DNA from: Sanguibacter suarezii NBRC 16159
GTDB taxonomy: Bacteria > Actinomycetota > Actinomycetes > Actinomycetales > Cellulomonadaceae
Length of the DNA: 64,000 nt
NCBI RefSeq assembly: GCF_001552735.1
Contig: NZ_BCRT01000004.1
Location: 124,001-188,000, forward strand
Direction: 5' to 3'
The position numbers and the translations under genes were made by a program. Within the stretch, counting starts at the first letter, position 1. Every line of letters starts with the position of its first letter. The notes beneath the pieces are model-generated. The model ran no database searches and was not told the DNA's origin. It worked only from the letters and a program-made list of their open reading frames with translations. Positions 27,565-45,310 of the stretch are shown piece after piece.

Positions 27565-27686
27565 GAGGTCTCCTCGGGGTTGACGGGCGGTCCTTCCACA
27601 GTAGGTCCGGTGGCTCCAGCGCGCTGAGGGAGCGCCGAGAGAGCGCTGATCCCGGGCGCGTCACCGCCTGTGACAGCCCCGCTGCG

Positions 27687-27717
27687 ACAGGTTGTGTCGC
27701 GGGTTCGACAGGTTGTG
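27687..27717 (+). promoter_or_regulatory. Putative LytTR operator 1, upstream of GH3-1
   Basis: Two identical ACAGGTTGTG copies at 27687-27696 and 27708-27717, start-to-start distance 21 bp, both on the plus strand. A T-rich TCTACT lies about 43 bp after the second start. The rest of the 484-bp gap (27565-28048) contains the gldA promoter side and a candidate 42-codon ORF. Confidence 0.65.
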
Positions 27718-27888
27718 CGGAGCGGCCCGAGAGTGCCCCTGCGGTGCTGGTCTACTGGCAAGACCCGCGTGCGCCGCACCCGTCGAACGACGTCGCTCGA
27801 CGCACCAGGTCGCACGCCATGCACCGACACGTCAGTAACGCCGACCGGACCGCAGACGCCGGACGGCACATGCAAAGGAGCATCCTTC

Positions 27889-28017
27889 GTGACCACGACA
27901 GTGGCGAAGCCGCCTCTGAGCCCCAGGTGGCTCGAGCGCCGGCCGGGCGCGGGCACCCGCGCGAGCACCGCCGTCGTCCCTCTCGGCCTCGACCTGCGCC
28001 GTCCGAACCGTGCCTGA
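27889..28017 (+). CDS. Candidate small ORF between LytTR site 1 and GH3-1
   Basis: 42 codons from a GTG with a consensus AAAGGAG 8 nt upstream, ending 31 bp before the GH3-1 start. The product is Arg/Pro-rich (starts VTTTVAKPPLSPRWLERRPG), basic and without a hydrophobic segment. No homologue is recognised. The ribosome site is better than at many real genes here, so it may be a leader or small protein. GC-rich random reading remains possible. Confidence 0.35.
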   Translation: MTTTVAKPPLSPRWLERRPGAGTRASTAVVPLGLDLRRPNRA

Positions 28018-28048
28018 CCTGACCACCCCGTCCCGAGGAGACTCACCC

Positions 28049-30451
28049 ATGTCTGTAGAACTCACCGCATTCGAGAAGGCATCGCTGCTCAGCGGGGCCT
28101 CCGTCTGGGAGAGCCGAGCGGTCCCGCGCGCCGGGATCCGGTCGCTCATCCTGGCTGACGGCCCGCACGGTGTCCGTCGCCAGGTGGGTTCCTCCGACCA
28201 CCTGGGGATCAACGCCTCCAGCCCGGCCACCTGCTTCCCCACAGCGGTGACCATCGCCAGCACGTGGAACCCGGCCCTGGCGCAGGAGGTCGGCGAGGCC
28301 CTCGGAGCCGAGGCGGCGAACCTCGGCGTCGACGTGCTGCTCGGCCCGGGCCTGAACATCAAGCGCAGCCCGTTGTGCGGACGCAACTTCGAGTACTTCT
28401 CCGAGGACCCGTTCCTCTCCGGCGCCCTCGCCACCGGCTATGTCCGGGGCATCCAGTCCCAGGGCGTGGCTGCCTGCCCCAAGCACTTCGCCGTCAACAG
28501 CCAGGAGCACCGGCGCATGACGTCGGACTCCGTGGTCGACGAGCGGACGCTGCGGGAGATCTACCTCACCGGCTTCGAGAAGGTCGTCCGTGAGGCCGCC
28601 CCGCGGACAATCATGTCCAGCTACAACCTCGTGGACGGCGTCTACGCGAGCGAGAGCCGTCACCTGCTCCAGGACATCCTGCGCGACGAGTGGGGATTCG
28701 ACGGCGCAGTCGTGACCGACTGGGGCGGCGGCAACGACCCCGTCGCCGCAGCGCTCGCCGGCGGCACGCTGGAGATGCCGTCACCCGGCTTCGACTCGGT
28801 CCGCCAGCTGCTGGCCGCGATCGAGGACGGACGGATCACCGAGAGCGACCTGGACCCCCGCGTGGCGGAGATGCTGGCGCTGGGTGAGTGGGCAGACCGC
28901 CGCGATGCACGCCCGGTGGACCTCGACGCCCACCACGCCCTGGCGCGTCGTGCCGCCGCGGCCGGTCACGTCCTGCTCCGCAACGAGGACCAGGTCCTCC
29001 CGCTCTCCCCGGGCACCCGCGTCGCCGTGATCGGCGACTTCGCGACGACCCCTCGCTACCAGGGCGCCGGGTCCTCCCTGGTCAACCCCACGCGTCTGTC
29101 CGTCCCCTCCGAGGTGCTCGCCACCTCCGGCCTCGAGGTCGTGGCCACCGCGCAGGGCTTCCAGCGCTCCGGCGCGCCAGACGACGCGCTGCGCGAGGAG
29201 GCCGTGCGCGCAGCGCAGGGCTCCGACGTCGTGCTGCTGTTCCTGGGGCTGGACGAGGTCTCGGAGTCCGAGGGACGCGACCGCACGCACCTGCGCCTGC
29301 CGGACAACCAGGTGGCGCTCCTGCAGGCCCTCGACGCCGCCGGTGCGACGGTCGTCGTCGTCCTGGCTGCCGGGTCTCCGGTCGAGATGCCGTGGCTGGG
29401 CTGCACCCAGGCGCTGCTGCACGGATTCCTCGGCGGGCAGGCCGGCGCGGAGGCCACGGTCGACGTGCTCACCGGGCAGGTCAACCCGTCAGGCCGCCTC
29501 GCCGAGACGTACCCCGTCCGGCTCGAGGACACCCCCGCCCACCGCTGGTACGGGGCGGACGACGTCCTGGAGTACCGCGAGGGGCTGTTCGTGGGCTACC
29601 GGTACTACTCCACCGCCGGGGTGCCGGTGCTGTTCCCCTTCGGATTCGGGCTCAGCTACACGACCTTCGAGTACTCCGACCTCTCCGTCACCGAAGGCGG
29701 CGCGACGTTCACCGTGCGCAACACCGGTTCCCGTACCGGGGCCGAGGTGGCCCAGGTGTACGTCGCCCGTGACAGCGAGGGTGTGCACCGCCCGGCGCGC
29801 GAGCTCAAGGGATTCGCCCGGGTCGAGCTGGCACCGGGGGCCTCGCGCACGGTCACCGTGCCGCTCGACGAGCGAGCCTTCGCCCACTACAGCACCGAGC
29901 TCGGCGGCTGGGCCGTCGAGCGTGGCACCTACTCCGTCCACGTGGGCTCCAACGTCGCCGAGACCGCGCTGCAGGCGACGCTCGAGGTCGACGGCGTCGA
30001 GCCGGTCTCCGACGCGGCCCGGCTGCCGCACTACGCCGCAGCTGACGTCACCGACGTCTCCGACGCGGAGTTCGAGGCACTGCTCGGCAAGCCGCTCACC
30101 GCTCCGGCGCAGGCCGCGCTGCTCGGCCTGAACGACCCGCTGCTCGCCATGCGCGGGGCCCGCAGCCCGCTGGCCCGCTTCGCCGCCTGGGTGCTGCGGT
30201 CCTTGGAGAAGCGCGCTGAGCGTCGCGGGAACCCTGACCTCAACCTGTTCTTCCTGCAGAACATGCCGCTGCGCGCCATCGCCAAGATGACGAACGGGTC
30301 GGTCAGCACACCGATGGTCGAGGCGATCCTCACGATCGTCAACGGCAAGCACCTGCGCGGGATCGGCGCGCTCATGGGGGCCACGGCGAAGAACATCCGG
30401 TCGACGCGCACCATGCGCCGGGCGCTCACGGCCGGCCACGACCCGCGCTGA
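28049..30451 (+). CDS. Glycoside hydrolase family 3, cytosolic beta-glucosidase-like enzyme (GH3-1)
   Basis: 800 aa without a signal peptide, so it acts on imported oligosaccharides. The ATG at 28049 has CGAGGAG 8-9 nt upstream. Order: GH3 N domain (LADGPHGVRRQ, RNFEYFSEDPFLSG, CPKHFAVNSQEHRR, nucleophile Asp224 in VVTDWGGGND); GH3 C domain (VAVIGDFATTPRYQGAGSS, LFLGLDEVSESEGRDR); fibronectin-III-like domain (FGFGLSYTTFEYSDL). A C-terminal tail of about 150 residues (from SDAEFEALLGKP) has helical segments NMPLRAIAKMTNG and NGKHLRGIGALM. Substrate cannot be read; beta-glucoside or a related linkage is likely. It leads the unit GH3-gtrA-GT2 behind LytTR site 1. Confidence 0.92.
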   Translation: MSVELTAFEKASLLSGASVWESRAVPRAGIRSLILADGPHGVRRQVGSSDHLGINASSPATCFPTAVTIASTWNPALAQEVGEALGAEAANLGVDVLLGPGLNIKRSPLCGRNFEYFSEDPFLSGALATGYVRGIQSQGVAACPKHFAVNSQEHRRMTSDSVVDERTLREIYLTGFEKVVREAAPRTIMSSYNLVDGVYASESRHLLQDILRDEWGFDGAVVTDWGGGNDPVAAALAGGTLEMPSPGFDSVRQLLAAIEDGRITESDLDPRVAEMLALGEWADRRDARPVDLDAHHALARRAAAAGHVLLRNEDQVLPLSPGTRVAVIGDFATTPRYQGAGSSLVNPTRLSVPSEVLATSGLEVVATAQGFQRSGAPDDALREEAVRAAQGSDVVLLFLGLDEVSESEGRDRTHLRLPDNQVALLQALDAAGATVVVVLAAGSPVEMPWLGCTQALLHGFLGGQAGAEATVDVLTGQVNPSGRLAETYPVRLEDTPAHRWYGADDVLEYREGLFVGYRYYSTAGVPVLFPFGFGLSYTTFEYSDLSVTEGGATFTVRNTGSRTGAEVAQVYVARDSEGVHRPARELKGFARVELAPGASRTVTVPLDERAFAHYSTELGGWAVERGTYSVHVGSNVAETALQATLEVDGVEPVSDAARLPHYAAADVTDVSDAEFEALLGKPLTAPAQAALLGLNDPLLAMRGARSPLARFAAWVLRSLEKRAERRGNPDLNLFFLQNMPLRAIAKMTNGSVSTPMVEAILTIVNGKHLRGIGALMGATAKNIRSTRTMRRALTAGHDPR

Positions 30452-30453
30452 CC

Positions 30454-30486
30454 TGATCTGCCACTGATCTGCCACTGACCTGCGAC
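30454..30486 (+). repeat. Three tandem 11-bp units
   Basis: TGATCTGCCAC occurs twice exactly and once with two changes (TGACCTGCGAC) immediately after the GH3-1 stop codon. No role is evident. Confidence 0.7.
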
Positions 30487-30525
30487 AGCCCTCGCCGACC
30501 CTGACCACCGAGAAAGAGACCTGAC

Positions 30526-31158
30526 ATGCTGCGACGGATCGGCGAGGCCTGGAAGGGCCTTGAGCAGAGACGCCCGGGAACTGCGCAGTTCCTCATGTTC
30601 TTCGTGCTGAGCAACGGCGTGACCGCGCTGCAGCTGGCGCTCATGCCGGTGTTCAAGAGTGCCTTCGGTCACACCGCCCTGGTGAGCACCGCCTTCCAGG
30701 TCTTGCCGATCGGGGCGAACGTCGACGGGTCGCAGTTCTTCGTCTTCGACTACGCCGCTGGGGCATTGCCCCAGGGTGGAGGGGGTCTGGCGTACTTCCT
30801 CGCGGTGCAGATCACGCTGCTCATCGCGCAGGTCATCAACTTCTTCCTCCAGCGCAGGGTGACCTTCCGGTCCAACTCGAGCATCTGGCGGGCCGCTGCC
30901 TGGTACCTGCTCGCCTATATCATCATCACCTTTGCCGCAGCAGCGTTGCAGGGCCTGTACAAGGCCCCGATCTACGACCTGCTGATGACGACCTGGGGTT
31001 GGGGAGAGTTGGGCGGCACCGTCGCCGACGTCGTGACGATGATCATCAACAGCGCACTGTCCTTCTGGGTCTTCTTCCCCATCTTCAAGGTCATCTTCAA
31101 GCGTGAGCCCGAGCTGCATCTCGAGCCCGCGCCGGCCACCTCCCGAACGGCGGTCTGA
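30526..31158 (+). CDS. GtrA-like polytopic membrane protein, copy 1
   Basis: 210 aa with about four to five membrane helices. The GtrA hallmark is visible as INFFLQRRVTFRSN near the middle and [16 protein letters not shown] at the C-terminus. An extended, Gly-rich loop (PIGANVDGSQFFVFDYAAGA) lies between helices 1 and 2 and is not typical of short GtrA proteins. Known: GtrA proteins are thought to flip polyprenyl-phosphate-linked sugars for glycan decoration. It sits between GH3-1 and a GT2 gene, 4 bp before the latter. A close paralogue lies at 40152-40772. Confidence 0.85.
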   Translation: MLRRIGEAWKGLEQRRPGTAQFLMFFVLSNGVTALQLALMPVFKSAFGHTALVSTAFQVLPIGANVDGSQFFVFDYAAGALPQGGGGLAYFLAVQITLLIAQVINFFLQRRVTFRSNSSIWRAAAWYLLAYIIITFAAAALQGLYKAPIYDLLMTTWGWGELGGTVADVVTMIINSALSFWVFFPIFKVIFKREPELHLEPAPATSRTAV

Positions 31159-31162
31159 CACC

Positions 31163-32200
31163 ATGACCGCGAAGCTGCTCACCGTCGTGGTGCCGAGCTA
31201 CAACTCGGCAGACTACCTGCACCGCTGCCTGGACTCCCTCGTCCCAGGCCCGGCGGACACCGAGGTCGTCGTCGTGGACGACGGCTCCCGCGACGCGACC
31301 GCTCAGATCGCCCGTGGCTACGCCGAGCGGTTCCCCGGCATCGTGCGGGTGGTCTCCAAGCCCAACGGCGGTCACGGCTCGGCGATCAACGCCGGGCTGG
31401 CCGTCGCCCAGGGGCGCTACATCAAGGTCGTCGACTCCGACGACTGGGTGGACCGCGGGGCCTACGCGTCGTTGCTGGACATGCTGCGGGAGCGGGCGGA
31501 GCGCGGCGAGGACGACCTCGACGTCGTCGTGAGCAACTTCGTCTACGAGAAGGACGGCCGACGCACCAAGCGCGCGGTGCGCTACCGCGACGTGCTGCCG
31601 GTGGGGGAGGTCTTCGACTGGGACGACGTCGAGGCCTTCGGGGTGTCGCAGTACATCCTCATGCACTCCCTGGTCTACCGCACGGCTCTGCTCGTCGAGT
31701 GCGGCCTGGTGCTGCCCGAGCACACCTTCTACGTGGACAACCTCTACGCCTACGTCCCGCTCGCGGACGTGCGGACGATGTACTACCACGACGTCGATCT
31801 GTACCGGTACTACATCGGCCGGGCCGACCAGTCCGTCAACGAGAGCGTCATGATCTCGCGGCTGGACCAGCAGCTGCGGGTCAACCGGATGATGCTGACG
31901 CACCTGCAGGAGGTGCGCAGCCGCGACGACGTGTCCAAGGGGCTCGTCCGCTACCTCGTGCACTACGCCAAGATCGTCTCCGCGGTGTCCTCGGTGCTGC
32001 TCGCGCGGGCGGGGACCCCTGCTGCCCTGGAGGAGCGGGACCGCTTCTGGCGCGAGGTCCGCGAGACGGACCCGTGGCTGTACTCCCGGCTGCGCTCGCG
32101 CTCGGTCATGGGGCAGGTCGCCAACCTCCCCGGGCGGCCCGGGCGGGGTCTGTCGGTCCTGGCCTACCTCGTGGCCCAGCGAGCCGTCGGCTTCAACTAG
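31163..32200 (+). CDS. Family 2 glycosyltransferase
   Basis: 345 aa, soluble or peripherally bound. GT-A fold start LLTVVVPSYNSADYLHRCLDS, VVVDDGSRDATA (nucleotide-binding Asp), SKPNGGHGSAINAGL, and the DxD-type metal motif VVDSDDW. The second half lacks the membrane helices of dolichyl-phosphate-sugar synthases, so direct transfer of a sugar from UDP or dTDP is likely. The acceptor is unknown. The ATG at 31163 follows gtrA by 4 bp, implying one transcript. Confidence 0.9.
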   Translation: MTAKLLTVVVPSYNSADYLHRCLDSLVPGPADTEVVVVDDGSRDATAQIARGYAERFPGIVRVVSKPNGGHGSAINAGLAVAQGRYIKVVDSDDWVDRGAYASLLDMLRERAERGEDDLDVVVSNFVYEKDGRRTKRAVRYRDVLPVGEVFDWDDVEAFGVSQYILMHSLVYRTALLVECGLVLPEHTFYVDNLYAYVPLADVRTMYYHDVDLYRYYIGRADQSVNESVMISRLDQQLRVNRMMLTHLQEVRSRDDVSKGLVRYLVHYAKIVSAVSSVLLARAGTPAALEERDRFWREVRETDPWLYSRLRSRSVMGQVANLPGRPGRGLSVLAYLVAQRAVGFN

Positions 32201-32310
32201 GACCTTCGACCCGACTGTGAACGGTGTCATGACGGACGTCCGGCCGCGGCGTCGTGCGCGATCGCAGCCGCGCGAGACCCCCTTTCCGGAGGTGTTCGCG
32301 GGCTCGCTCG

Positions 32311-32341
32311 ACAGTCTGTGCGCACAACCCGACAGGTTGTG
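32311..32341 (+). promoter_or_regulatory. Putative LytTR operator 2, upstream of GH3-2
   Basis: ACAGTCTGTG at 32311-32320 and ACAGGTTGTG at 32332-32341, start-to-start 21 bp, plus strand. The 328-bp gap (32201-32528) also holds a candidate TGTGAT -10-like hexamer about 42 bp downstream and a 12-codon upstream ORF. Confidence 0.6.
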
Positions 32342-32493
32342 CAGATCGAGGCGGCGGCAGGTGGGAATCGGGTTGTGATGAGGTCGCTGAGCTCCGGTGA
32401 GGGACACCACGTGTGCCACAGGTAGCGCAGGCCCGACCGGATGTGGCGACTGTGACGTCGACCAGGTCCGCAGGGCAGTCAAAGGAGACACGC

Positions 32494-32532
32494 GTGGACA
32501 CACGCTTGTGCGACGAAAGGGAAGGTCGATGA
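32494..32532 (+). CDS. Candidate 12-codon upstream ORF coupled to GH3-2
   Basis: GTG start with AAAGGAG 6 nt upstream, peptide VDTRLCDEREGR. Its TGA overlaps the GH3-2 ATG (ATGA). GH3-2 itself has only GGGAAGG close to its start, so initiation may be coupled through this ORF. Confidence 0.35.
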   Translation: MDTRLCDEREGR

Positions 32533-34931
32533 CGACTACGTCAACACGCCATCACATGAAGGCGAAGGGCATCAAGGGAGCGGCGCTCGTCACAGGGATC
32601 GCCATGCTCGCTCTGGCTGGTTGCTCCAGCTCAGCCTCCGACGAGGGAGACGCCCCCGCCGGCGGCAACGCCTTCACCACGCGGGAGGTCACGGACGGCA
32701 CGACCGACTTCGTGGTCGTCACCAACCCGGGCGACGGACCGGTCCTGTCCTACGGTGCAGACAGCGGGATCGAGCTGCTCACCGAAGAGGTCGACGGACA
32801 GACGCTCGCGTTCAAGGACATGAACGCCAACGGCACGCTCGACGTGTGGGAAGACTGGCGCGAGAGCGCCCAGGACCGTGCGGCGGACCTCGCGGCGACC
32901 ATGTCGGTCGAGCAGGTCGCCGGGCTCATGCTGTTCAGCTCCCACGAGCGCTCTCCTGCTGACGGCCTGACCGACGCGCAGAAGACGTACCTGTCGGAGT
33001 CTCACCTGCGCAACGTCCTCAACGCTGCAGCCAGCGACGTCGAGGCGACCGTGCCGTGGGTCAACGCCATGCAGGCCTACGTGGAGACGCTGGCCACCGA
33101 GGACACCCCGTACATCCCGGTGAACTTCAGCTCTGACCCTCGGTCCTCCGCAGGCTCAGCCGGCTACAACTCCAGCGGCGTGGACATCTCGCGCTGGCCC
33201 TCCAGCCTGGGCCTGGCCGCGACCTTCGACGCCGAGCACACCCAGACCTTCGCCGAGATGGCCTCCGCGGAGTACCGCGCCCTGGGCATCACCACGGCGC
33301 TGAGCCCGCAGATCGACCTCGCGACCGAGCCGCGCTGGCTGCGTGTCGGCGACACCTTCGGCGAGGACGCGGAGCAGAACACCGAGCTCGCGGCCGCCTA
33401 CGTCGACGGCTTCCAGGGCTCTGCCGGCGAGGACGGATGGGGCGTCCAGTCCGTCAACGCCATGATCAAGCACTGGGCTGGCGACGGTCCCGGCGAAGGG
33501 GGACGCGAGTCCCACACCGAAGCCGGCAAGTACGGGGTGTACCCGGGCGGCAACTTCGACGAGCACACCCAGGCCTTCCTGGGGTCCCCGGACGCTGCCG
33601 CCATCATGACCGCCTACTCGATCGCGCTCGACGCCGACGGACAGCCGCTCCTGGGTGACCGTACCGGCACCGCGTACGACGAGGGCCGCATGGCGCTGCT
33701 GCGCGAGGAGCACGGCTACGACGGCGTCGTGGTCACCGACTGGGGCGTCATGACCGGCGCCGACGACGCCGACGCCTTCATCGCGATGGCCTGGGGCGCC
33801 GAGGAGCTCACCCCGGCCGAGCGCTACCTGCAGGTGCTCAAGACCGGGCACGACATGTTCGGTGGCGTCAACGACGCGACCTACCTGCTCGAGGCTGCTG
33901 AGCTGTGGCAGGAGAAGTTCGAGGCTGGCGAGCTGGACGAGGACGCCGAGGCGCGCTTCCAGGAGTCCGGCGCGCGCATCCTGACGATGTTCTTCAACCC
34001 CGGTCTGTACGAGAGCGCCTTCCTCGACATCGAGGAGTCGAAGGCGATCCTCGCCAGCGACGACAAGGTCGCCGCGGGCTACGAGGCCCAGCTCGACTCG
34101 GTGGTCATGCTCAAGAACGACGGTGAGACCATCACCGCGAGCGAGACCGCTGACTGGTCCGACAAGACGGTCTACATCCCGCACACCTTCAACCTCGGCC
34201 TGGCCGGCGCCTTCGGCCCCGCCACGCTCACCGAGTACCCGAGCCTGGCGATCGAGGCCGCCGAGGAGATCTTCGGCACCGTCCTGACCGACACCGTCGA
34301 GCTCGACGCGGACGGCAACGTCGTCTCCCAGACGGCCCCCGACCTGTCCGACGTGGACCTCGTCCTCGTCGGGATGGACAGCCCGGACAACGGTGGCACC
34401 TTCACCAACGCCGGCCGGGACGCCGAGACGGGCGACTTCTACCCGCTGTCGCTGCAGTACCGTCCGTACACCGCTGACGGCGAGAACGTGCGCCAGGTCT
34501 CGATCTCGGGCGACATCCTCCCCGACGGGACGCAGCAGAACCGGTCGTACTTCGGCAAGACCTCGCACATCCTCAACGAGGCTGACCTCGACGCCTTCGA
34601 GCGTGCGATCACGGCCATCGAGGCCACCGGCAAGGACATCCCGGTGATCACCGTCCTCAAGGCGGCCAACCCGGTCATCCCGACCGAGTTCGAGTCCCGC
34701 TCCGACGCGATCGTCGTCGGGTTCGGCACGAACGACAAGGCTCTCATCGAGGTCGCCCTCGGCCTGCACGAGCCCAAGGGACGCCTGCCGATCCAGTTCC
34801 CCGCCGACATGAACACCGTCGAGGCGCAGTTCGAAGACGTCGCGAAGGACGTCACGCCGTTCACCGACTCCGTCGGCAACGTCTACGACTACGGCTTCGG
34901 CCTGAACTACGCGGGACCGATCTCGAACTGA
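32529..34931 (+). CDS. GH3 lipoprotein, extracellular beta-glycosidase-like enzyme (GH3-2)
   Basis: 800 aa. A type II signal peptide ends in the lipobox LALAGC with Cys32, so the mature enzyme is tethered to the outer face of the membrane. After a Ser/Asp linker comes an EF-hand-like loop (FKDMNANGTLDVWEDWR), often seen at the N-terminus of this GH3 subgroup. Then the GH3 N domain (PSSLGLAATFDAEH, ALSPQIDLATEPRWLR, KHWAGDGPGEGGRESH, nucleophile Asp404 in VVVTDWGVMTGADD) and the GH3 C domain (SVVMLKNDG to the end). No fibronectin-III domain follows. The protein is strongly acidic. It is a single-gene unit between LytTR site 2 and a terminator. Confidence 0.92.
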   Translation: MTTTSTRHHMKAKGIKGAALVTGIAMLALAGCSSSASDEGDAPAGGNAFTTREVTDGTTDFVVVTNPGDGPVLSYGADSGIELLTEEVDGQTLAFKDMNANGTLDVWEDWRESAQDRAADLAATMSVEQVAGLMLFSSHERSPADGLTDAQKTYLSESHLRNVLNAAASDVEATVPWVNAMQAYVETLATEDTPYIPVNFSSDPRSSAGSAGYNSSGVDISRWPSSLGLAATFDAEHTQTFAEMASAEYRALGITTALSPQIDLATEPRWLRVGDTFGEDAEQNTELAAAYVDGFQGSAGEDGWGVQSVNAMIKHWAGDGPGEGGRESHTEAGKYGVYPGGNFDEHTQAFLGSPDAAAIMTAYSIALDADGQPLLGDRTGTAYDEGRMALLREEHGYDGVVVTDWGVMTGADDADAFIAMAWGAEELTPAERYLQVLKTGHDMFGGVNDATYLLEAAELWQEKFEAGELDEDAEARFQESGARILTMFFNPGLYESAFLDIEESKAILASDDKVAAGYEAQLDSVVMLKNDGETITASETADWSDKTVYIPHTFNLGLAGAFGPATLTEYPSLAIEAAEEIFGTVLTDTVELDADGNVVSQTAPDLSDVDLVLVGMDSPDNGGTFTNAGRDAETGDFYPLSLQYRPYTADGENVRQVSISGDILPDGTQQNRSYFGKTSHILNEADLDAFERAITAIEATGKDIPVITVLKAANPVIPTEFESRSDAIVVGFGTNDKALIEVALGLHEPKGRLPIQFPADMNTVEAQFEDVAKDVTPFTDSVGNVYDYGFGLNYAGPISN

Positions 34932-34942
34932 TCGACGCGACC

Positions 34943-34980
34943 ACTGGGTGGCCGGCGGCACCAGCTGCCGGCCACCCAGT
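34943..34980 (+). terminator. Terminator of GH3-2
   Basis: A 14-bp perfect inverted repeat (34943-34956 and 34967-34980) with a 10-nt loop, 11 bp after the stop codon. Confidence 0.8.
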
Positions 34981-35074
34981 CTCCGGATCGGCGGGCAGCA
35001 CCACTCCCACCGACACCGGCACGCACGACCGACTGCGGGGTGGGCCCGTGGTCAGATCTCATGAAGGAGCAGAC

Positions 35075-35497
35075 ATGAAGCGCAAGAAGATGCTGACCAC
35101 CGGCCTCGGCCTGCTGATCACCGTGACCGGTGTGCTCGGGCTCGCCGCGTGCGGCAGCGACGAGAGCGGTGCGGAGACCCCGTCCGGCTCCTCCTCCGAG
35201 AGCGCCTCGGTCGACGTCGACGTCGCAGACGACCTGGAGAACGCCCGGACGGCCATCGCCGACGCGCTCGCCGAGGACGACTCGTGGGGTCAGATCATGC
35301 TGGCCAGCGACGTCAAGGCGCCCACCGTGAAGTACGGCATGCTCGTCGTGCCCTACACCCCCTCCGACGCCGCCTCGCGCGTGCAGGGCACCGTCACGAT
35401 CACCGACGGCGCGTACACGATCGAAGCCGACTCGGCCGCCTCCGGCCAGACGTGGCAGATCGACCAGGACGGCACGATCACCGAAGCGTCGAAGTAA
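35075..35497 (+). CDS. Small lipoprotein of unknown function
   Basis: 140 aa. The start at ATG 35075 has AAGGAG 6-7 nt upstream. The signal peptide KRKKMLTTGLGLLITVTGVL ends in the lipobox GLAAC (Cys26). A Ser/Glu/Asp linker leads to an 85-residue domain with alternating beta-strand character (KYGMLVVPYTP, GTVTITDGAYTIEAD, TWQIDQDGTI). No family is recognised. It lies 72 bp before GH3-3 and is probably co-transcribed with it. Confidence 0.8.
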   Translation: MKRKKMLTTGLGLLITVTGVLGLAACGSDESGAETPSGSSSESASVDVDVADDLENARTAIADALAEDDSWGQIMLASDVKAPTVKYGMLVVPYTPSDAASRVQGTVTITDGAYTIEADSAASGQTWQIDQDGTITEASK

Positions 35498-35569
35498 CAG
35501 CTCGGAACACCGTCCGGTCATGGGTCACCCCCATGATCTGATCACTGATCGCACTCGAGGAGAACTGCA

Positions 35570-38500
35570 GTGAACGCCAAGGCAAAGAACGCCGATCGCG
35601 AGAAGAAGCCGATGTCGAACAAGAAGTACCTGTGGATCTGGGCACCCGCTCTCGCGACGGTGACTGTGATCACCGTCGTGGCGAACGTGGGCCTCAACGT
35701 CGCCGGAGGCTGGGTCGCATCCCAGTTCGGATCCGGTACGTACGAGTTCACGAACGCGGAGGAGTCCGCCGCCTGGGACACCGAGTACTACTCGTCCGAC
35801 TTCGACGACATCGACGCGGTCGACGAGGCCGCCAAGGCGCTCGTCGAGGAGATCTCCGGCGCAGGCATCGTCCTGGCCAAGAACGAGGCCGGTGCGCTGC
35901 CGCTGGCCCCCAGCTCGAGCGTGACGATGCTGGGCCGCGCGGCCGCGGACCCGGTGTTCGGCGGGTCCGGTTCCGGTTCCGTGGACACCAACTCCGCGGT
36001 CACCGCCCGTGGTGGCCTGGAGAACGCGGGCCTCGTGGTGAACGACGAGGTCTTCACCACGATCGAGGCGTTCGCTGCAGAGAACCCGCGCGGCTACATC
36101 GAGATGGACAACCCCGGCGCCTCCACCTACTACATCGGTGAGATGCCGGTCGCCGACTACCAGGCGACGTCAGCCTCCTTCGAGCAGTACTCCGACGCCG
36201 CCGTCGTCTACGTCGGCCGTCCGGGCGGTGAGGGCGGCGACCTCACGCAGGACATGACCGACTGGGACGACAACGCCGAGGCCGGTCAGCACCAGCTCGA
36301 GCTGAACAAGGACGAGCGGGACCTGATCGAGCTGGCGAAGTCCAGCTTCGAGACGGTCGTCGTCGTGGTCAACGCCTCGACGACGATCGAGATGGGTGAC
36401 CTCCAGGCGGACCCCGAGATCGACGCGATCCTGCTGGCAGGGTCGCCGGGCGCGACCGGTCTCAACGCGCTCGGTCGCGTGCTGACCGGTGAGGTCAACC
36501 CCTCCGGCCGCACCGCGGACCTGTGGGCGGCTGACTTCACAGCGGACCCGACCTTCGTCAACTTCGGCGGCTACGTCTACGACAACGTCGAGGCGTCCTT
36601 CCCGGTCTCCGCCATCGAGACGGCGACCTCCAACGCGACGGTCACCTCCGAGGCACCGTTCGTCAACTACGCCGAGGGCATCTACTTCGGCTACCGCTAC
36701 TACGAGACCGCAGCGGCCGAGGGCTTCATCGACTACGACGCCGCGGTGGTCTACCCCTTCGGCTACGGGCTCAGCTACACGGACTTCACCTGGGAGGTCG
36801 CGAGCACCGAGGCCGGTGACGTGGACGGCACCGTCTCGGTGACCGTGAACGTCACCAACACCGGTGACACCGCGGGCAAGGACGTCGTGGAGCTCTACTA
36901 CACCGCGCCCTACACCGCCGGTGGCATCGAGAAGTCCGAGGTCGTCCTGGGCGGCTTCGCCAAGACGGACCTCATCGAGCCCGGTGCCAGCGAGAGCGTC
37001 GTGATCGACCTCGCGGTCGAGGACATGGCCTCCTACGACCACCTGGACGCCGAGGCGTACGTCCTGGAGGCCGGTGACTACACCATCTCCGTGCGCACCG
37101 ACTCCCACACGGTCGCCCCGGGCACCGAGCCGATCACCTACACCGTCGACTCCGACGTCGTGTTCTCCGGTGACGACCACCGCTCCTCCGACCTCACCGA
37201 GGTCACCAACCAGTTCGACGACGTCTCGGCGCAGTTCAGCACCGAGCCCACCGAGGGCAAGGTCCTGTCGATGTCCCGCGCGGACTTCGCCGGCACCTTC
37301 CCGACGGCCCCGACCCCGGACCTGTTCGTCGCGGACGAGGCTGTCATCGAGGGCTTCGCCGCCTGGGACTACGACGCACAGGCCGAGGCCTTCGAGGGCG
37401 AGAAGCCGGCGACGGGCGAGCGCTCCGAGCTCGCGCTGATCGACCTGCGCGGACTGCCCAAGGACGACCCCCAGTGGGAGGACCTGCTCGACTCCATCTC
37501 GGTCGACGACATGACCGGCATGCTCCTCAACGGCGCCTACCAGACGGCCGCGATCGGTTCGATCGCCAAGCCGCAGACCGTCGAGCCTGACGGACCGGCT
37601 GGCCTGTCCTCGTTCATCAACTCCTCGATCAACGGTGTGGCCTACCCCTCGCAGGTCCTCATCGCCCAGACCTGGGACGTGGACCTGGGCACCGCCATGG
37701 GCACGATGATCGGCAACGAGGTGCTGCAGAAGGACCTCAACGGCTGGTACGCCCCCGCGGTCAACCTGCACCGCTCGCCCTTCGGCGGCCGGAACTTCGA
37801 GTACTACTCCGAGGACCCCTTCCTCTCCGGCGCCATGGCCACCGCGGTGTCCAACGGTGCGGCGGACAAGGGTGTCTACACGATGCTCAAGCACTTCGCG
37901 CTCAACGAGCAGGAGACGAACCGCGTCAACAACGGCATCGCCACCTGGGCCACCGAGCAGACGATCCGTGAGGTCTACCTCAAGCCCTTCGAGATGGTCG
38001 TCAAGGACACCTCGATGGACGTCCGGTACATCTCTGACGAGGACGGCACGATCTCGGAGACGACGATCGGCGCCGGCGGCATCATGAGCTCCTTCAACCG
38101 GATCGGTGCGGTCTGGGCCGGCGGCTCCGAGGCGCTCATGACGACCGTGCTCCGTGATGAGTGGGGCTTCGAGGGCTTCGCCATCTCGGACTTCAACCTC
38201 TACCCGTACATGAACCCGAACCAGAGCATCAGCGCTGGTACGGACCTCACGCTGACCTTCCAGCCGTCGAAGTCCTTCGGGGACACGTCGTCGGCCAAGG
38301 CCGTGACGGACATCCGCAACGCGACCCACAACATCCTGTTCACGGTCGCGAACTCCAACGCGATGAACGGGATCGCGCCGGGGGCCACGGTCTCGTACAC
38401 GCCGCCCACCTGGGTGTACATCCAGATCGGCGCCACCGTGGTGATCGGCCTGCTCGTGCTGGCAGGCGGGCTCATGGTGACGCGTCGCGTGCTGCGTCAC

Positions 38501-38581
38501 CGCAAGGACGAGGCCGACGTCTCCGCACCGGCTCTGGCCGGGGCCGGGGCCGGGGCTGGTCGCCCGGGCGACGAGTCCTGA
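35570..38581 (+). CDS. Domain-permuted GH3 enzyme with membrane helices at both ends (GH3-3)
   Basis: 1003 aa from GTG 35570 with GAGGAG 9 nt upstream. Order differs from normal GH3: an N-terminal helix (YLWIWAPALATVTVITVVANV, about 20-40), then the GH3 C domain (GIVLAKNEAGALPL, VVYVGRPGGEGGDLTQD), the fibronectin-III-like domain (PFGYGLSYTDFTW), and only then the GH3 N domain (PDGPAGLSSFINSS, GRNFEYYSEDPFLSG, LKHFALNEQETNR, nucleophile Asp874 in FAISDFNLY). A final helix (IQIGATVVIGLLVLAGGLMV, about 948-967) is followed by a Lys/Arg then Gly/Ala tail. Known: reversed-order GH3 enzymes exist in Butyrivibrio and Ruminococcus. Both termini would be cytosolic with the enzyme outside. Confidence 0.92.
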   Translation: MNAKAKNADREKKPMSNKKYLWIWAPALATVTVITVVANVGLNVAGGWVASQFGSGTYEFTNAEESAAWDTEYYSSDFDDIDAVDEAAKALVEEISGAGIVLAKNEAGALPLAPSSSVTMLGRAAADPVFGGSGSGSVDTNSAVTARGGLENAGLVVNDEVFTTIEAFAAENPRGYIEMDNPGASTYYIGEMPVADYQATSASFEQYSDAAVVYVGRPGGEGGDLTQDMTDWDDNAEAGQHQLELNKDERDLIELAKSSFETVVVVVNASTTIEMGDLQADPEIDAILLAGSPGATGLNALGRVLTGEVNPSGRTADLWAADFTADPTFVNFGGYVYDNVEASFPVSAIETATSNATVTSEAPFVNYAEGIYFGYRYYETAAAEGFIDYDAAVVYPFGYGLSYTDFTWEVASTEAGDVDGTVSVTVNVTNTGDTAGKDVVELYYTAPYTAGGIEKSEVVLGGFAKTDLIEPGASESVVIDLAVEDMASYDHLDAEAYVLEAGDYTISVRTDSHTVAPGTEPITYTVDSDVVFSGDDHRSSDLTEVTNQFDDVSAQFSTEPTEGKVLSMSRADFAGTFPTAPTPDLFVADEAVIEGFAAWDYDAQAEAFEGEKPATGERSELALIDLRGLPKDDPQWEDLLDSISVDDMTGMLLNGAYQTAAIGSIAKPQTVEPDGPAGLSSFINSSINGVAYPSQVLIAQTWDVDLGTAMGTMIGNEVLQKDLNGWYAPAVNLHRSPFGGRNFEYYSEDPFLSGAMATAVSNGAADKGVYTMLKHFALNEQETNRVNNGIATWATEQTIREVYLKPFEMVVKDTSMDVRYISDEDGTISETTIGAGGIMSSFNRIGAVWAGGSEALMTTVLRDEWGFEGFAISDFNLYPYMNPNQSISAGTDLTLTFQPSKSFGDTSSAKAVTDIRNATHNILFTVANSNAMNGIAPGATVSYTPPTWVYIQIGATVVIGLLVLAGGLMVTRRVLRHRKDEADVSAPALAGAGAGAGRPGDES

Positions 38582-38595
38582 CCAGCAGCGTCTAG

Positions 38596-38642
38596 CTCCC
38601 CGTCGGGCAGGAGGTGGTCCCCACCACCTGCCCGGCGGGGAG
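38596..38642 (+). terminator. Terminator of GH3-3
   Basis: A long inverted repeat of about 22 bp with one or two mismatches (CTCCCCG at 38596 to CGGGGAG ending at 38642), followed by TTCTGC. Confidence 0.75.
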
Positions 38643-38699
38643 TTCTGCATTCCCCCGCTCCGCTCCTTACAACGATGGAATCGCATCTAGAGTGGGGGC

Positions 38700-39941
38700 A
38701 TGCTCCCAGGTCCAGTCCTCGACCGCGCCCCGACGCGGCAGGCCCGACGGGCACGGCTGGCCGTCTCCGTCCTCTTCGCGCTCAACGGCTTCGTCTACGC
38801 CAACCTGCTGCCTCGCTATCCCGAGCTCATGGCGAGCCTGGGGCTGACCAAGGCCGGCCTGGGCACCGCGATCGCCGGTGCTCCGCTCGGCGCGCTGGTG
38901 GGCGGGCTCGTCGCCGGGCAGGCGGTCGCCCGGTGGGGATCACGCCGGGTCGCGCTCACCGGGGCGGTCGCCATGGCGCTGGTCTTCGCCGGCGTGGGCT
39001 TCGCCGGCTCGTGGGCCGTCCTCGTCGCGCTCATGGTCGGCACCGGGATCTTCGACGCCCTCGTGGACGTGGGGGACAACGCCCACGGGCTGCGGGTCCA
39101 GCGGATCTATGGCCGCTCCATCATCAACGCCCTGCACGGGGTGTGGTGCGTGGGTGCGGTGGCCGGTGGGCTCACGGGGTCCCTCGCGGCCGCGGTGGCC
39201 CTGCCGCTGACCGTCCATCTGCCGCTGGTCGCCGCGGGGGTGCTGGTCACCGTCGTGCTCGTGGCTCCCCTCATGCTCCCCGGACTGGACCGCAGCGAGA
39301 CCGAGGCCCCGGAGCTGGTCGGCGCCGCGCTCACCGGTGGTGCGCCCGGCCCGCGGCGACGCCCACGGGTCCTCGGGCGCCTCGTCGGGCTCGGTGCGAT
39401 CGCGACGATCGGCGCCATGGTCGAGGATCTGGGCAACTCGTGGGGTGCGGTCTACCTCGTCGACGAGCTCGGTGCGCCCACGGCCCTGGCCGGCAGCGCG
39501 TTCCTGGCGATGATGAGCGCGCTGCTGGTCGGCCGCTTCGTCGCCGACCGGGCGGTCGACCGGTTCGGCCCCCGCTCCGTGGTCGCCGCCGGATCGGTCC
39601 TGGTGGTCGTGGGGATCGGTGCGACGATGGCCTGGCCCACCCTGACGATGACCTACGTGGGCTTCGCCCTTGCAGGCCTCGGGGCCGCCGTGATGATCCC
39701 GCTGGCGACGACGACGGCGGACGAGATCCCCGGGCTCGCCCCGGGCACCGGCGTCGCCTTCGTCAGCTGGTTCATGCGGTTCGGCTGCTTCGCCGGTCCG
39801 CCCGTCATCGGCCTCATCGCCGACGGCGCAGGGTTGCGCCTGGCCTTCGGGGTGGGCGTGGCAGCCGGTGCGCTGGGGATCGTCCTCGCGCCGCTGCTCG
39901 CGGCACGGCGCACGGCGGCAGGTGCACCCTCCGCCGGCTGA
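38700..39941 (+). CDS. MFS transporter
   Basis: 413 aa with 12 predicted helices. The loop 2-3 motif GQAVARWGSRRVAL and its counterpart VADRAVDRFGPRSVV (loop 8-9) are the MFS signatures. The overall pattern (LPRYPELMASLGLTKAGLGTAI, INALHGVWCVGAV, VEDLGNSWGAVYL) resembles the YbjJ/FucP-like branch, so a sugar or sugar derivative is plausible but unproven. Context with GH3 genes supports sugar import. It ends 4 bp before LytTR site 3. Confidence 0.87.
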   Translation: MLPGPVLDRAPTRQARRARLAVSVLFALNGFVYANLLPRYPELMASLGLTKAGLGTAIAGAPLGALVGGLVAGQAVARWGSRRVALTGAVAMALVFAGVGFAGSWAVLVALMVGTGIFDALVDVGDNAHGLRVQRIYGRSIINALHGVWCVGAVAGGLTGSLAAAVALPLTVHLPLVAAGVLVTVVLVAPLMLPGLDRSETEAPELVGAALTGGAPGPRRRPRVLGRLVGLGAIATIGAMVEDLGNSWGAVYLVDELGAPTALAGSAFLAMMSALLVGRFVADRAVDRFGPRSVVAAGSVLVVVGIGATMAWPTLTMTYVGFALAGLGAAVMIPLATTTADEIPGLAPGTGVAFVSWFMRFGCFAGPPVIGLIADGAGLRLAFGVGVAAGALGIVLAPLLAARRTAAGAPSAG

Positions 39942-39944
39942 CAG

Positions 39945-39975
39945 ACAGGTTGTGCGCGTCAGCGCGCAGGTTGTG
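39945..39975 (+). promoter_or_regulatory. Putative LytTR operator 3, upstream of the second gtrA
   Basis: ACAGGTTGTG at 39945-39954 and GCAGGTTGTG at 39966-39975, start-to-start 21 bp, plus strand. An AT-rich GAATAG (40010-40015) lies about 44 bp after the second start, at the same relative place as -10-like hexamers at sites 1 and 2. Confidence 0.65.
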
Positions 39976-40151
39976 CGCACGGGGCCGTCGGGCGGCGGCT
40001 GGTCGGGTCGAATAGGGCATCGACCACCGACTTCGACGGAGAGGTGCCCGGCTCGGCGCAGCCATGCTCTCTCCTTCGCCCGCGGCCAGGTCGACCGAGC
40101 GCACACCCTGCCGACGGTCCTCGTGCCGACGGCGCTGACAAGGAGATCCAG

Positions 40152-43391
<3,240 letters not shown>

Positions 43392-43395
<4 letters not shown>

Positions 43396-44108
43396 GGCAG
43401 GCGGCCACCGACGTGGTTGGTCAACGCGTCCAGGAAGGCCCGACGCCGGGGGCGGCTCACCAGGAGCTCGTCCCCACCGAGCATGGTGCAGCTGTTCTGG
43501 CTGATGCCCGTCACGTACTTGAGGTTGACGAGGTAGCAGTTGTTGCTGCGGTAGAAGTCCTTGCCGGCGAGCTCGGACTCCAGGGCCTTGAGCGTGCCGT
43601 TGAGGGCGTAGGTGCGGTCCACGGCGTGCACCACGATGCGGTGCTTGATGCTCTCCACGTAGACGATGTTGGCGAGGTTGACCCGGGCCATCCCCCCGGA
43701 GACCGGGAGCATCACGGCGTCGTTGTCCGCCCGGCGCACGCGGGCGATGCTGCGCCGCAGCTCCTGGGCGAAGGCGAAGTACGGCACCGGCTTGACGAGG
43801 TAGCTCAGGGCGTCGACCTCGTAGCCGCGGATCGCGTACTGGGCCATGTTCGTGATGAAGACGAGGACGACGTCGGCGTCGAGCAGGCGGATCTTGCGGG
43901 CCGTCTCCAGCCCGTCGAGGACGGCCATCTGGACGTCGAGGAAGATGATGTCGAACTCGGGGCGGTAGTCCGCGGTGATCTCGCTGCCGTCGCTGAAGGT
44001 GGTGACCGAGAAGGTGACACCGTGCTCAGCCTCGTAGCGCCCGAGGTAGTCGGTGATGAGGTCCTGGCTGATCTTCTCGTCGTCGACGACGCCGATCCGG
44101 ATCATCAC
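43392..44108 (-). CDS. LytTR-family response regulator
   Basis: 238 aa. REC domain (1-125) with acidic pocket DDE at 9-11 and phosphoacceptor Asp58 (IIFLDVQM), then Lys in YLVKPVP. The LytTR DNA-binding domain spans about 135-235 (IVYVESIKHRIVVHAVDRTY, SELAGKDFYRSNNCYLVNLKYV, VSRPRRRAFLDAL). AGGAG lies 6 nt before ATG 44108; ATG 44105 would also work. It forms an operon with the kinase. The paired 21-bp-phased repeats at 27.7, 32.3 and 39.9 kb are its most likely targets. No such repeat is seen before its own operon. Confidence 0.94.
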
Positions 44109-44162
44109 TCACTCCTGTCACCTCATCGTCACCGGGCGCGTACCGGCACTGCAGGATACCAA

Positions 44163-44196
44163 GGGGGCGCCGCCAGATAACGCAGGCGGCGCCCCC
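44163..44196. terminator. Terminator of the LLM oxidoreductase gene
   Basis: A 12-bp perfect inverted repeat (44163-44174 and 44185-44196) with a 10-nt AT-containing loop, just beyond the minus-strand stop at 44216. Confidence 0.8.
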
Positions 44197-44215
44197 GTGG
44201 CCGGGCGACCGGTGG

Positions 44216-45310
44216 TCAGCCGAGCAGCTCGGCTGCCATCAGCCGCAGGGTGGCCTCACGGGTGGTAGCGGTGCGCGGGTCCGTGCCGGCGTGGGCCGAT
44301 CCGACGGGGGAGAGCATGACCTCGTCGGTGCCCACGAGCTCGGCGAGGGCACGCACCTGGCGAGCGGCGACGTCGGGCGTGCCGATGGCCCAGGTGGAGC
44401 GGATCTGCTGGGCGAGCCCGGCGTGCTCGGGGGCGATGCCGGCAGCCTCGGCGTCCTCGATGAGCTCGACGGGGCCCATCTCGCCACCGGTGCGCAGACG
44501 GATCATGGACCGGATGTAGGGCAGCGCCTGGCGCTCGGCGTCCTCGGCCGTCTCGGCGACGACGGCGTTGATGATCGCGAAGGTCCGCGGCTCCGGGTAG
44601 GCCTCGGACGGGCGGTAGGACGAGCGGTAGGCCGCCATCGCCTCGGCCGTGCCCTGCCCGGCGAAGTGGTGGGCGAAGACGTAGGGCAGGCCCAGGGCCG
44701 CGGCGAGCTGGGCGGAGTACATGGAGGAGCCGAGGAGCCAGACGTCCGGGACGCTCGTGGCGCGCGGCGTCGCTGACAGCGGGTAGGTGCGTCCGCGCAG
44801 GTCGAGCAGGACGCCGCCGGGGGACATGAGGTCGATCGTGTCCCGCACGTCGTCGGGGAAGGTGTCCACGGAGTCGGTGCCGCGGGCAGCGCCGGAACGC
44901 AGCATGTGGCTGGTGACGGGGTCAGACCCAGGGGCCCGTCCGATCCCGAGGTCGATGCGGCCCGGGAAGGCCGCCTCGAGCAGGGCGAACTGCTCGGCGA
45001 CGACGAGCGGGGCGTGGTTGGGCAGCATGACGCCACCGGACCCGATGCTGATCTGCTGCGTCGCGGAGGCCAGCAGGGCGATGAGCACGGCGGGGTTGGT
45101 CGAGGCCACGGCCGGCATGTTGTGGTGCTCGGCCACCCAGTACCGCCGGAAGCCGAGCTCGTCGGCGGTCTGTGCCAGGCGGGTGCTGGCGGCCAGGGCG
45201 TCAGAGGTCGTCTGGTCGGTCCTGACGGGGATGAGGTCGAGGACCGAGAGTGCGGCGACGGGGGTGGTGGGCGCGGACGGGTCAGGGAGTGCTGAGAGGG
45301 TCGAGGTCAC
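44216..45310 (-). CDS. LLM-class flavin-dependent monooxygenase (MsnO8-like)
   Basis: 364 aa from GTG 45310, immediately after the stop of the preceding gene. Luciferase-like TIM barrel: LSVLDLIPVRTDQT near the start, YWVAEHHNMPAVASTNP, ISIGSGGVMLPNHAPLVVAEQF, and the MsnO8-type RIDLGIGRAPGSDP and YVFAHHFAGQGT. The family uses reduced FMN and O2; substrates vary widely. Next to an SsuABC-like transporter, desulfonation of an organosulfur compound is possible, but the sequence resembles MsnO8 more than SsuD. Confidence 0.85.
   Translation of the reverse strand: MTSTLSALPDPSAPTTPVAALSVLDLIPVRTDQTTSDALAASTRLAQTADELGFRRYWVAEHHNMPAVASTNPAVLIALLASATQQISIGSGGVMLPNHAPLVVAEQFALLEAAFPGRIDLGIGRAPGSDPVTSHMLRSGAARGTDSVDTFPDDVRDTIDLMSPGGVLLDLRGRTYPLSATPRATSVPDVWLLGSSMYSAQLAAALGLPYVFAHHFAGQGTAEAMAAYRSSYRPSEAYPEPRTFAIINAVVAETAEDAERQALPYIRSMIRLRTGGEMGPVELIEDAEAAGIAPEHAGLAQQIRSTWAIGTPDVAARQVRALAELVGTDEVMLSPVGSAHAGTDPRTATTREATLRLMAAELLG

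Follow-up and report, generated by a model that had tools for sequence, protein, structure and literature searches.

Three pairs of direct repeats in a 64,000-nt stretch of the Sanguibacter suarezii NBRC 16159 genome (hereafter called the window) are very probably the operators of the LytTR response regulator encoded in the same window (43392–44108), which would activate genes for GH3 glycosidases and for GtrA/GT2 proteins. This reading rests on the sequence of the repeats, their specificity within the genome, their fixed position relative to a predicted promoter, and their co-occurrence with the regulator in other genomes, all of which are described below; the features concerned are collected in Table 1.

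Table 1. Predicted operators, promoter elements and genes in the window
Feature	Coordinates	Strand	Remark
Site 1, ACAGGTTGTG-N11-ACAGGTTGTG	27687..27717	+	predicted LytTR operator of GH3-1/gtrA-1/GT2
−10 hexamer TCTACT	27751..27756	+	predicted, site 1 promoter; one base off the common register
GH3-1, GH3 glycosidase	28049..30451	+	GH3 N, GH3 C and Fn3-like domains; predicted cytoplasmic
gtrA-1	30526..31158	+	GtrA/DPMS membrane protein
GT2	31103..32200	+	glycosyltransferase of family 2; may start near 31166
Site 2, ACAGTCTGTG-N11-ACAGGTTGTG	32311..32341	+	predicted operator of the GH3-2 unit
−10 hexamer TGTGAT	32374..32379	+	predicted, site 2 promoter
GH3-2	32529..34931	+	predicted GH3 lipoprotein, lipobox LAGC
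orf149	35075..35497	+	small predicted lipoprotein with lipobox, conserved beside GH3-2
GH3-3	35570..38581	+	domain-swapped GH3; start may be near 35615
Site 3, ACAGGTTGTG-N11-GCAGGTTGTG	39945..39975	+	predicted operator of gtrA-2
−10 hexamer TCGAAT	40008..40013	+	predicted, site 3 promoter
gtrA-2	40152..40772	+	membrane protein of the GtrA family; scores 24.3 in Pfam, under the cut-off of 26.1
Hairpin	40818..40851	+	perfect 15-bp G+C-rich stem separating gtrA-2 from glf; may be a terminator or an RNA element
glf	40888..42039	+	UDP-galactopyranose mutase; neighbour, regulon membership uncertain
Histidine kinase	42016..43395	−	about seven predicted membrane helices and HATPase_c_5
Response regulator	43392..44108	−	receiver and LytTR domains, both over the Pfam cut-off

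Specificity of the paired repeats

As described in an earlier note on this DNA, the three pairs lie on the + strand, with both copies in the same orientation and 21 bp from start to start (27687/27708, 32311/32332, and 39945/39966). When the 3.80-Mb genome of this strain was searched with the pattern given in that note, four matches with ≤1 mismatch were found on the forward strand and none on the reverse. The reversed pattern, used as a control on the same genome, gave no match at ≤1 mismatch, and composition alone would yield ~0.005 exact pairs and 0.25 pairs at ≤1 mismatch. None of the four pairs found in the whole-genome scan falls within any homologue of the cluster genes, and all of them precede GH3 or gtrA genes. 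The fourth pair is located at the start of another contig (C8:44–74), 80 nt upstream of a paralogue of GH3-2, namely a GH3 lipoprotein gene with 64% identity to GH3-2; the regulon is hence not "local", as the earlier note had termed it.

When the gap was allowed to vary between 2 and 32, exact CAGGTTGTG pairs occurred four times in 149 genomes (own included), always at 21 bp from start to start; the carriers are the own genome (twice) and the genomes G050 and G080. The loose pattern (≤1 mismatch), on the other hand, matches 61 of the 149 genomes, own included, and most of its matches in relatives are considered to be due to chance because the reversed control is about as frequent. A minority of the loose matches have an extended motif, RCAGNNTGTGC-N8-YGACAGGTTRTG, in common, and the specificity comes from this extended form.

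Conservation in relatives and promoter geometry

Of the 148 relatives, 27 have an orthologue of the regulator (E below 1e-50). The refined motif, which was derived from matches in these same relatives and whose first form was fixed before the regulator search, was present at ≤2 mismatches in 13 of the 27 regulator-positive vs 1 of the 121 regulator-negative relatives (Fisher p 1.7e-10, the genomes being related and hence not independent trials). With the own genome included, 15 genomes from seven genera bear the motif, at 30 places (≤2 mismatches), three of which are in the own genome. At 27 of the 30 places the nearest downstream cluster gene is a homologue of GH3, GtrA or GT2, 80–332 nt away from the site, and of the remaining three, two run into contig ends and one (in G147) has no cluster homologue within 9 kb. 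In 14 of the 27 regulator-positive relatives, no site was found at ≤2 mismatches; some of these have variant pairs, and in others none was found. With ≤3 mismatches, 59 places in 28 genomes were matched vs 24 by the reversed control. Among them we kept 34 sites (29 with ≤2 mismatches and five with three) and left out 25, all with three mismatches, which are about at the level of chance because the control gave 24. One of the kept sites, L092:7147, lacks a cluster gene downstream and could be background.

Downstream of the repeats, a −10-like hexamer is predicted at a fixed distance, as expected for promoters activated by a LytTR regulator. Indeed, when the 34 sites were aligned and positions were counted from the repeat edge, T was found at +33 in 30 and at +38 in 31 of them, and these are the only downstream columns above 0.9 bits. 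If a spacer of 17 bp is assumed, the second repeat ends ~9–10 bp before the predicted −35, and the operator is thus directly upstream of it; according to passages of PMC6193735, the repeats of LytTR Regulatory Systems are strongly biased to 10 bp upstream of −35. Because the repeats are upstream of the predicted −10, furthermore, they would not be part of the predicted transcript and would be suitably located for activation. Between the repeats, A is frequent at positions 16–18 (16, 18 and 25 of the 34 sites, respectively). A scan of 27600–44250 for consensus promoters found none (0.6 in shuffles), and three terminator-like sites were found in the same region (3.5 in shuffles).

Target genes

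Among the genes downstream of the sites, GH3-1 codes for a protein with no hydrophobic segment near either end; its one internal hydrophobic stretch (422–445) is in the GH3 C domain. Exo-alpha-(1->6)-L-arabinopyranosidase was the best NCBIfam model for this protein, but its score of 725.9 bits vs a cut-off of 1300 led us to assign no substrate. In GH3-3, the C domain precedes the N domain, and hydrophobic segments are present near both ends; the same swapped order is seen in alignments with solved GH3 structures, for instance 5wug and 5k6l. At E up to 0.001, a fold search with orf149 matched no PDB entry, and the structure of its folded part was predicted with high confidence. Two short open frames were also noticed: one of 42 codons (27889–28017), following AAAGGAG between site 1 and GH3-1, possibly encodes a leader peptide, and the other of 12 codons (32494–32532), following CAAAGGAG, ends in a stop codon overlapping the ATG of GH3-2 and might couple the translation of the two.

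The earlier note had placed site 3 before a gtrA-2/glf unit. While gtrA-2 stands as a predicted target, the membership of glf is insecure. The hairpin between the two genes has a 4-nt loop and no T run (−36.7 kcal/mol, z −5.4), and at none of the 34 sites examined is glf the closest cluster gene downstream, so that it was rejected as a direct target; for both of these reasons, the link to galactofuranose is weak here. In one locus (L121), a site precedes a GT2 gene that is followed by glf on the same strand, and several loci of Demequina also have glf after GT2 on the same strand. A functional link of glf to the regulon is plausible from such gene orders.

Response regulator and histidine kinase

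A search of the genome with PF04397 found a single LytTR domain, which is encoded by the regulator gene adjoining the third unit. Together with the motif, its spacing, the promoter geometry and the co-occurrence in relatives, this supports the proposal of a probable LytTR regulon. In 22 aligned regulator sequences, the phospho-acceptor Asp (D57) and K105 are invariant; the profile of these sequences has ComE (4cbv) as its best solved match, and AgrA was matched in the DNA-binding part. Autoregulation has been reported for related LytTR systems. In this genome, no site within three mismatches was found before the regulator gene, and candidate sites are present before the regulator gene in two distant loci (L161 and L162). 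The latter, from a Clostridia bin, has four successive repeats in steps of 21 bp before the regulator gene (L162:1087–1159), which might form an extended operator array.

The kinase is of the GHKL type (HATPase_c_5) with a multi-pass sensor, and its structural model (mean pLDDT 78.9, pTM 0.52) has about seven membrane helices. The kinase core matches many histidine kinases, with AgrC (6e95) among the best. Receptors of variable peptides, such as the sensors of AgrC, are expected to vary. Among 19 kinases from the own genome and relatives, the mean pairwise identity is 0.518 in the sensor vs 0.529 in the catalytic part, and 31 residues of the sensor are invariant. We then compared distant kinases, of which 39 were available from 47 loci (eight loci gave no full kinase); on average, their identity to the window kinase is 0.40 for the sensor and 0.47 for the kinase part. 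Fourteen of the 31 invariant residues, including E18, W64, E102, W109, Q110, N179 and R201, are kept in all 39 and possibly constitute a ligand site, while A17, T174 and G67 are kept in 17, 21 and 24 of the 39, respectively. AgrB (PF04647) was not found in the genome by a search that gave a match in only 1 of 14 control genomes. The description of the kinase as AgrC/ComD-like in the earlier note therefore holds for the domain make-up, but no AgrB was found and the sensor is conserved, which together favor a single common ligand over a variable peptide.

Occurrence in distant bacteria

At least 80 orthologues of the regulator were found in named genomes, and the best 80 were analyzed; these include Oerskovia, Cellulomonas, Demequina, Bifidobacterium and Propionibacteriaceae among others and also Faecalibacterium, Roseburia, Gemmiger, Mediterraneibacter and Tenericutes-type bins. 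For comparison, 20 loci of other LytTR regulators (27–33% identical) were taken from the relatives. Within flanks of up to 10 kb on each side, where several contigs end early, a GH3 homologue was found in 74 of the best 80 loci vs 1 of the 20 comparison loci, and the six loci without GH3 include short contigs (L123 and L189). GtrA, GT2 and Glf are neighbours in 46, 37 and 21 of the best 80 loci, respectively; GtrA was found in none of the 20 comparison loci.

A half-site model built from 18 pairs, taken from the own genome and from relatives, was run on the 47 distant loci (842 kb), which lie outside Cellulomonadaceae and Demequina and are partly related to each other, many being from Bifidobacterium. 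The model gave 37 pairs at 21 bp vs 0–7 at the other distances of 14–32 (7 at 20 bp), and the reversed control gave 7 pairs at 21 bp. At a threshold of 18 bits, 21 pairs at 21 bp and 0–4 elsewhere were obtained, with none at 21 bp in the control. Of the 37 pairs, 24 are within ~500 nt upstream of a GH3 homologue, four precede the regulator gene, and nine precede neither. In 20 of the 24 GH3-linked pairs, the best match to TATAAT (≥4/6) starts 30–32 nt after the second repeat, a tally that leans toward 32 since ties were broken in that direction. Given that the motif and the GH3 targets recur in Bifidobacterium and Clostridia, the regulon is not confined to the window and its relatives.

In at least seven distant loci, from a listing of those above 45%, GtrA is 57–68% identical to that of the window vs 43–53% for the regulator; in other distant loci, the identity of GtrA is only ~27–32%. 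Loci in the higher range include L172, L179, L183, L184 and L194, which are from Clostridia-type bacteria and Izemoplasmatales, and their GtrA might reflect either transfer or strong constraint.

Discussion

On the model that we propose, the multi-pass membrane kinase would sense a ligand and phosphorylate the regulator, which would then bind the two 10-bp repeats on the same face of the DNA, at a distance of two helical turns. As the repeats sit just upstream of a poor −35, the bound regulator could recruit RNA polymerase to the −10 starting ~33 nt after the second repeat, and the genes thereby switched on would be those for GH3 glycosidases and for GtrA/GT2 membrane glycosylation. The likeliest physiological role, which we suggest only tentatively, would be to regulate how a glycoside, either at the surface or imported, is turned over or remodelled: GH3s anchored at the surface would trim this glycoside, GH3-1 would finish the process inside the cell, and GtrA would move a lipid-linked sugar. 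It is also possible, with the odds somewhat against it, that one old sensory switch is common to Actinomycetota, Clostridia and Tenericutes-type bacteria, including Bifidobacterium, Faecalibacterium and Roseburia; one conserved glycan-related ligand would be perceived by the multi-pass sensor with its fixed residues, and the same 21-bp-phased operator would serve to turn on two GH3s, one of them a membrane protein with swapped domains, and often GtrA as well.

Direct repeats are used by regulators of the PhoB, MtrA and BldC types as well. An unrelated regulator of the PhoB/OmpR, MtrA or BldC type might bind the pairs and happen to control the same genes, and passages of PMC6222199 indeed describe direct repeats for OmpR-type regulators; nonetheless, the 21-bp period and the 10-bp half-sites fit LytTR, and the motif tracks the LytTR orthologue (13/27 vs 1/121) and its neighbourhood in distant groups, which makes such a coincidence improbable. 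That the repeats belong to a leader RNA or a mobile element and have no regulator at all is hardly credible; they are repeated sequences upstream of genes, as this explanation would have it, but they lie upstream of the predicted −10 and outside the predicted transcript, and their position and register are kept across genera and distant groups.

A different question is whether the kinase and the regulator constitute a peptide quorum-sensing system like Agr or ComDE, to which the glycan genes would respond according to cell density. The pairing of a HATPase_c_5 kinase with a LytTR regulator, the best match of the regulator to ComE 4cbv and the match of the kinase core to AgrC 6e95, albeit among many other histidine kinases, are in line with this idea. 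Yet AgrB, the processing protein of the Agr branch, was not found in the genome, the sensor shows nearly the same degree of conservation as the catalytic part and has 14 residues kept in 39/39 distant kinases, and the regulator gene has no own-promoter operator within three mismatches in this genome; we thus consider quorum sensing unlikely and favor control of the GH3 and GtrA/GT2 genes by a LytTR regulator responding to a shared ligand.

The recurrence of the regulator, its docking site and its sugar-cleaving targets in distant bacteria suggests an old and apparently undescribed switch for glycan handling; no description of this regulon was found in the literature searched, which took in few subscription papers. 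The precise predicted operator and the small set of targets can be searched for in any genome, and the switch could explain how one class of genes for membrane GH3 and GtrA proteins is regulated in actinobacteria and Clostridia. The conserved sensor residues, furthermore, offer a direct way to search for the ligand.

LytTR systems are known above all for controlling bacteriocins, competence and virulence, and details of the motif, such as the CAG(G)TT core of the AgrA and VirR sites, are known for these regulators. Like AgrA, ComE and YpdB, the present regulator is composed of a receiver and a LytTR domain, and its 10-nt repeats with an 11-nt spacer agree with the rule given in a passage of PMC4847170, in which LytTR sites consist of two repeats of 9–11 nt that are 11–13 nt apart. 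Unlike those three, it has a half-site near ACAGGTTGTG and GH3 and GtrA genes as its predicted targets, with AgrB and an own-promoter site (within three mismatches) not found in this genome. Direct repeats with 11–13 bp spacers are also a feature of HdrRM and BrsRM, where, according to passages of PMC6193735, a LytTR regulator is combined with an inhibitory membrane protein, whereas a kinase is combined with a receiver-bearing regulator here. With regard to polysaccharide loci, an arabinoxylan locus described in a part of PMC5320581 has a LytTR regulator with GH25, GH43 and GH51 and no GH3, and not every LytTR regulator in such loci is therefore of this kind. The nearest precedent found, in passages on Butyrivibrio proteoclasticus (PMC2914790), concerns three LytTR regulators in polysaccharide loci, each near a secreted GH3 that has a membrane helix at its C-terminus, an arrangement shared with the present system; the operator, the link to GtrA, the regulon and its distribution go beyond those passages.
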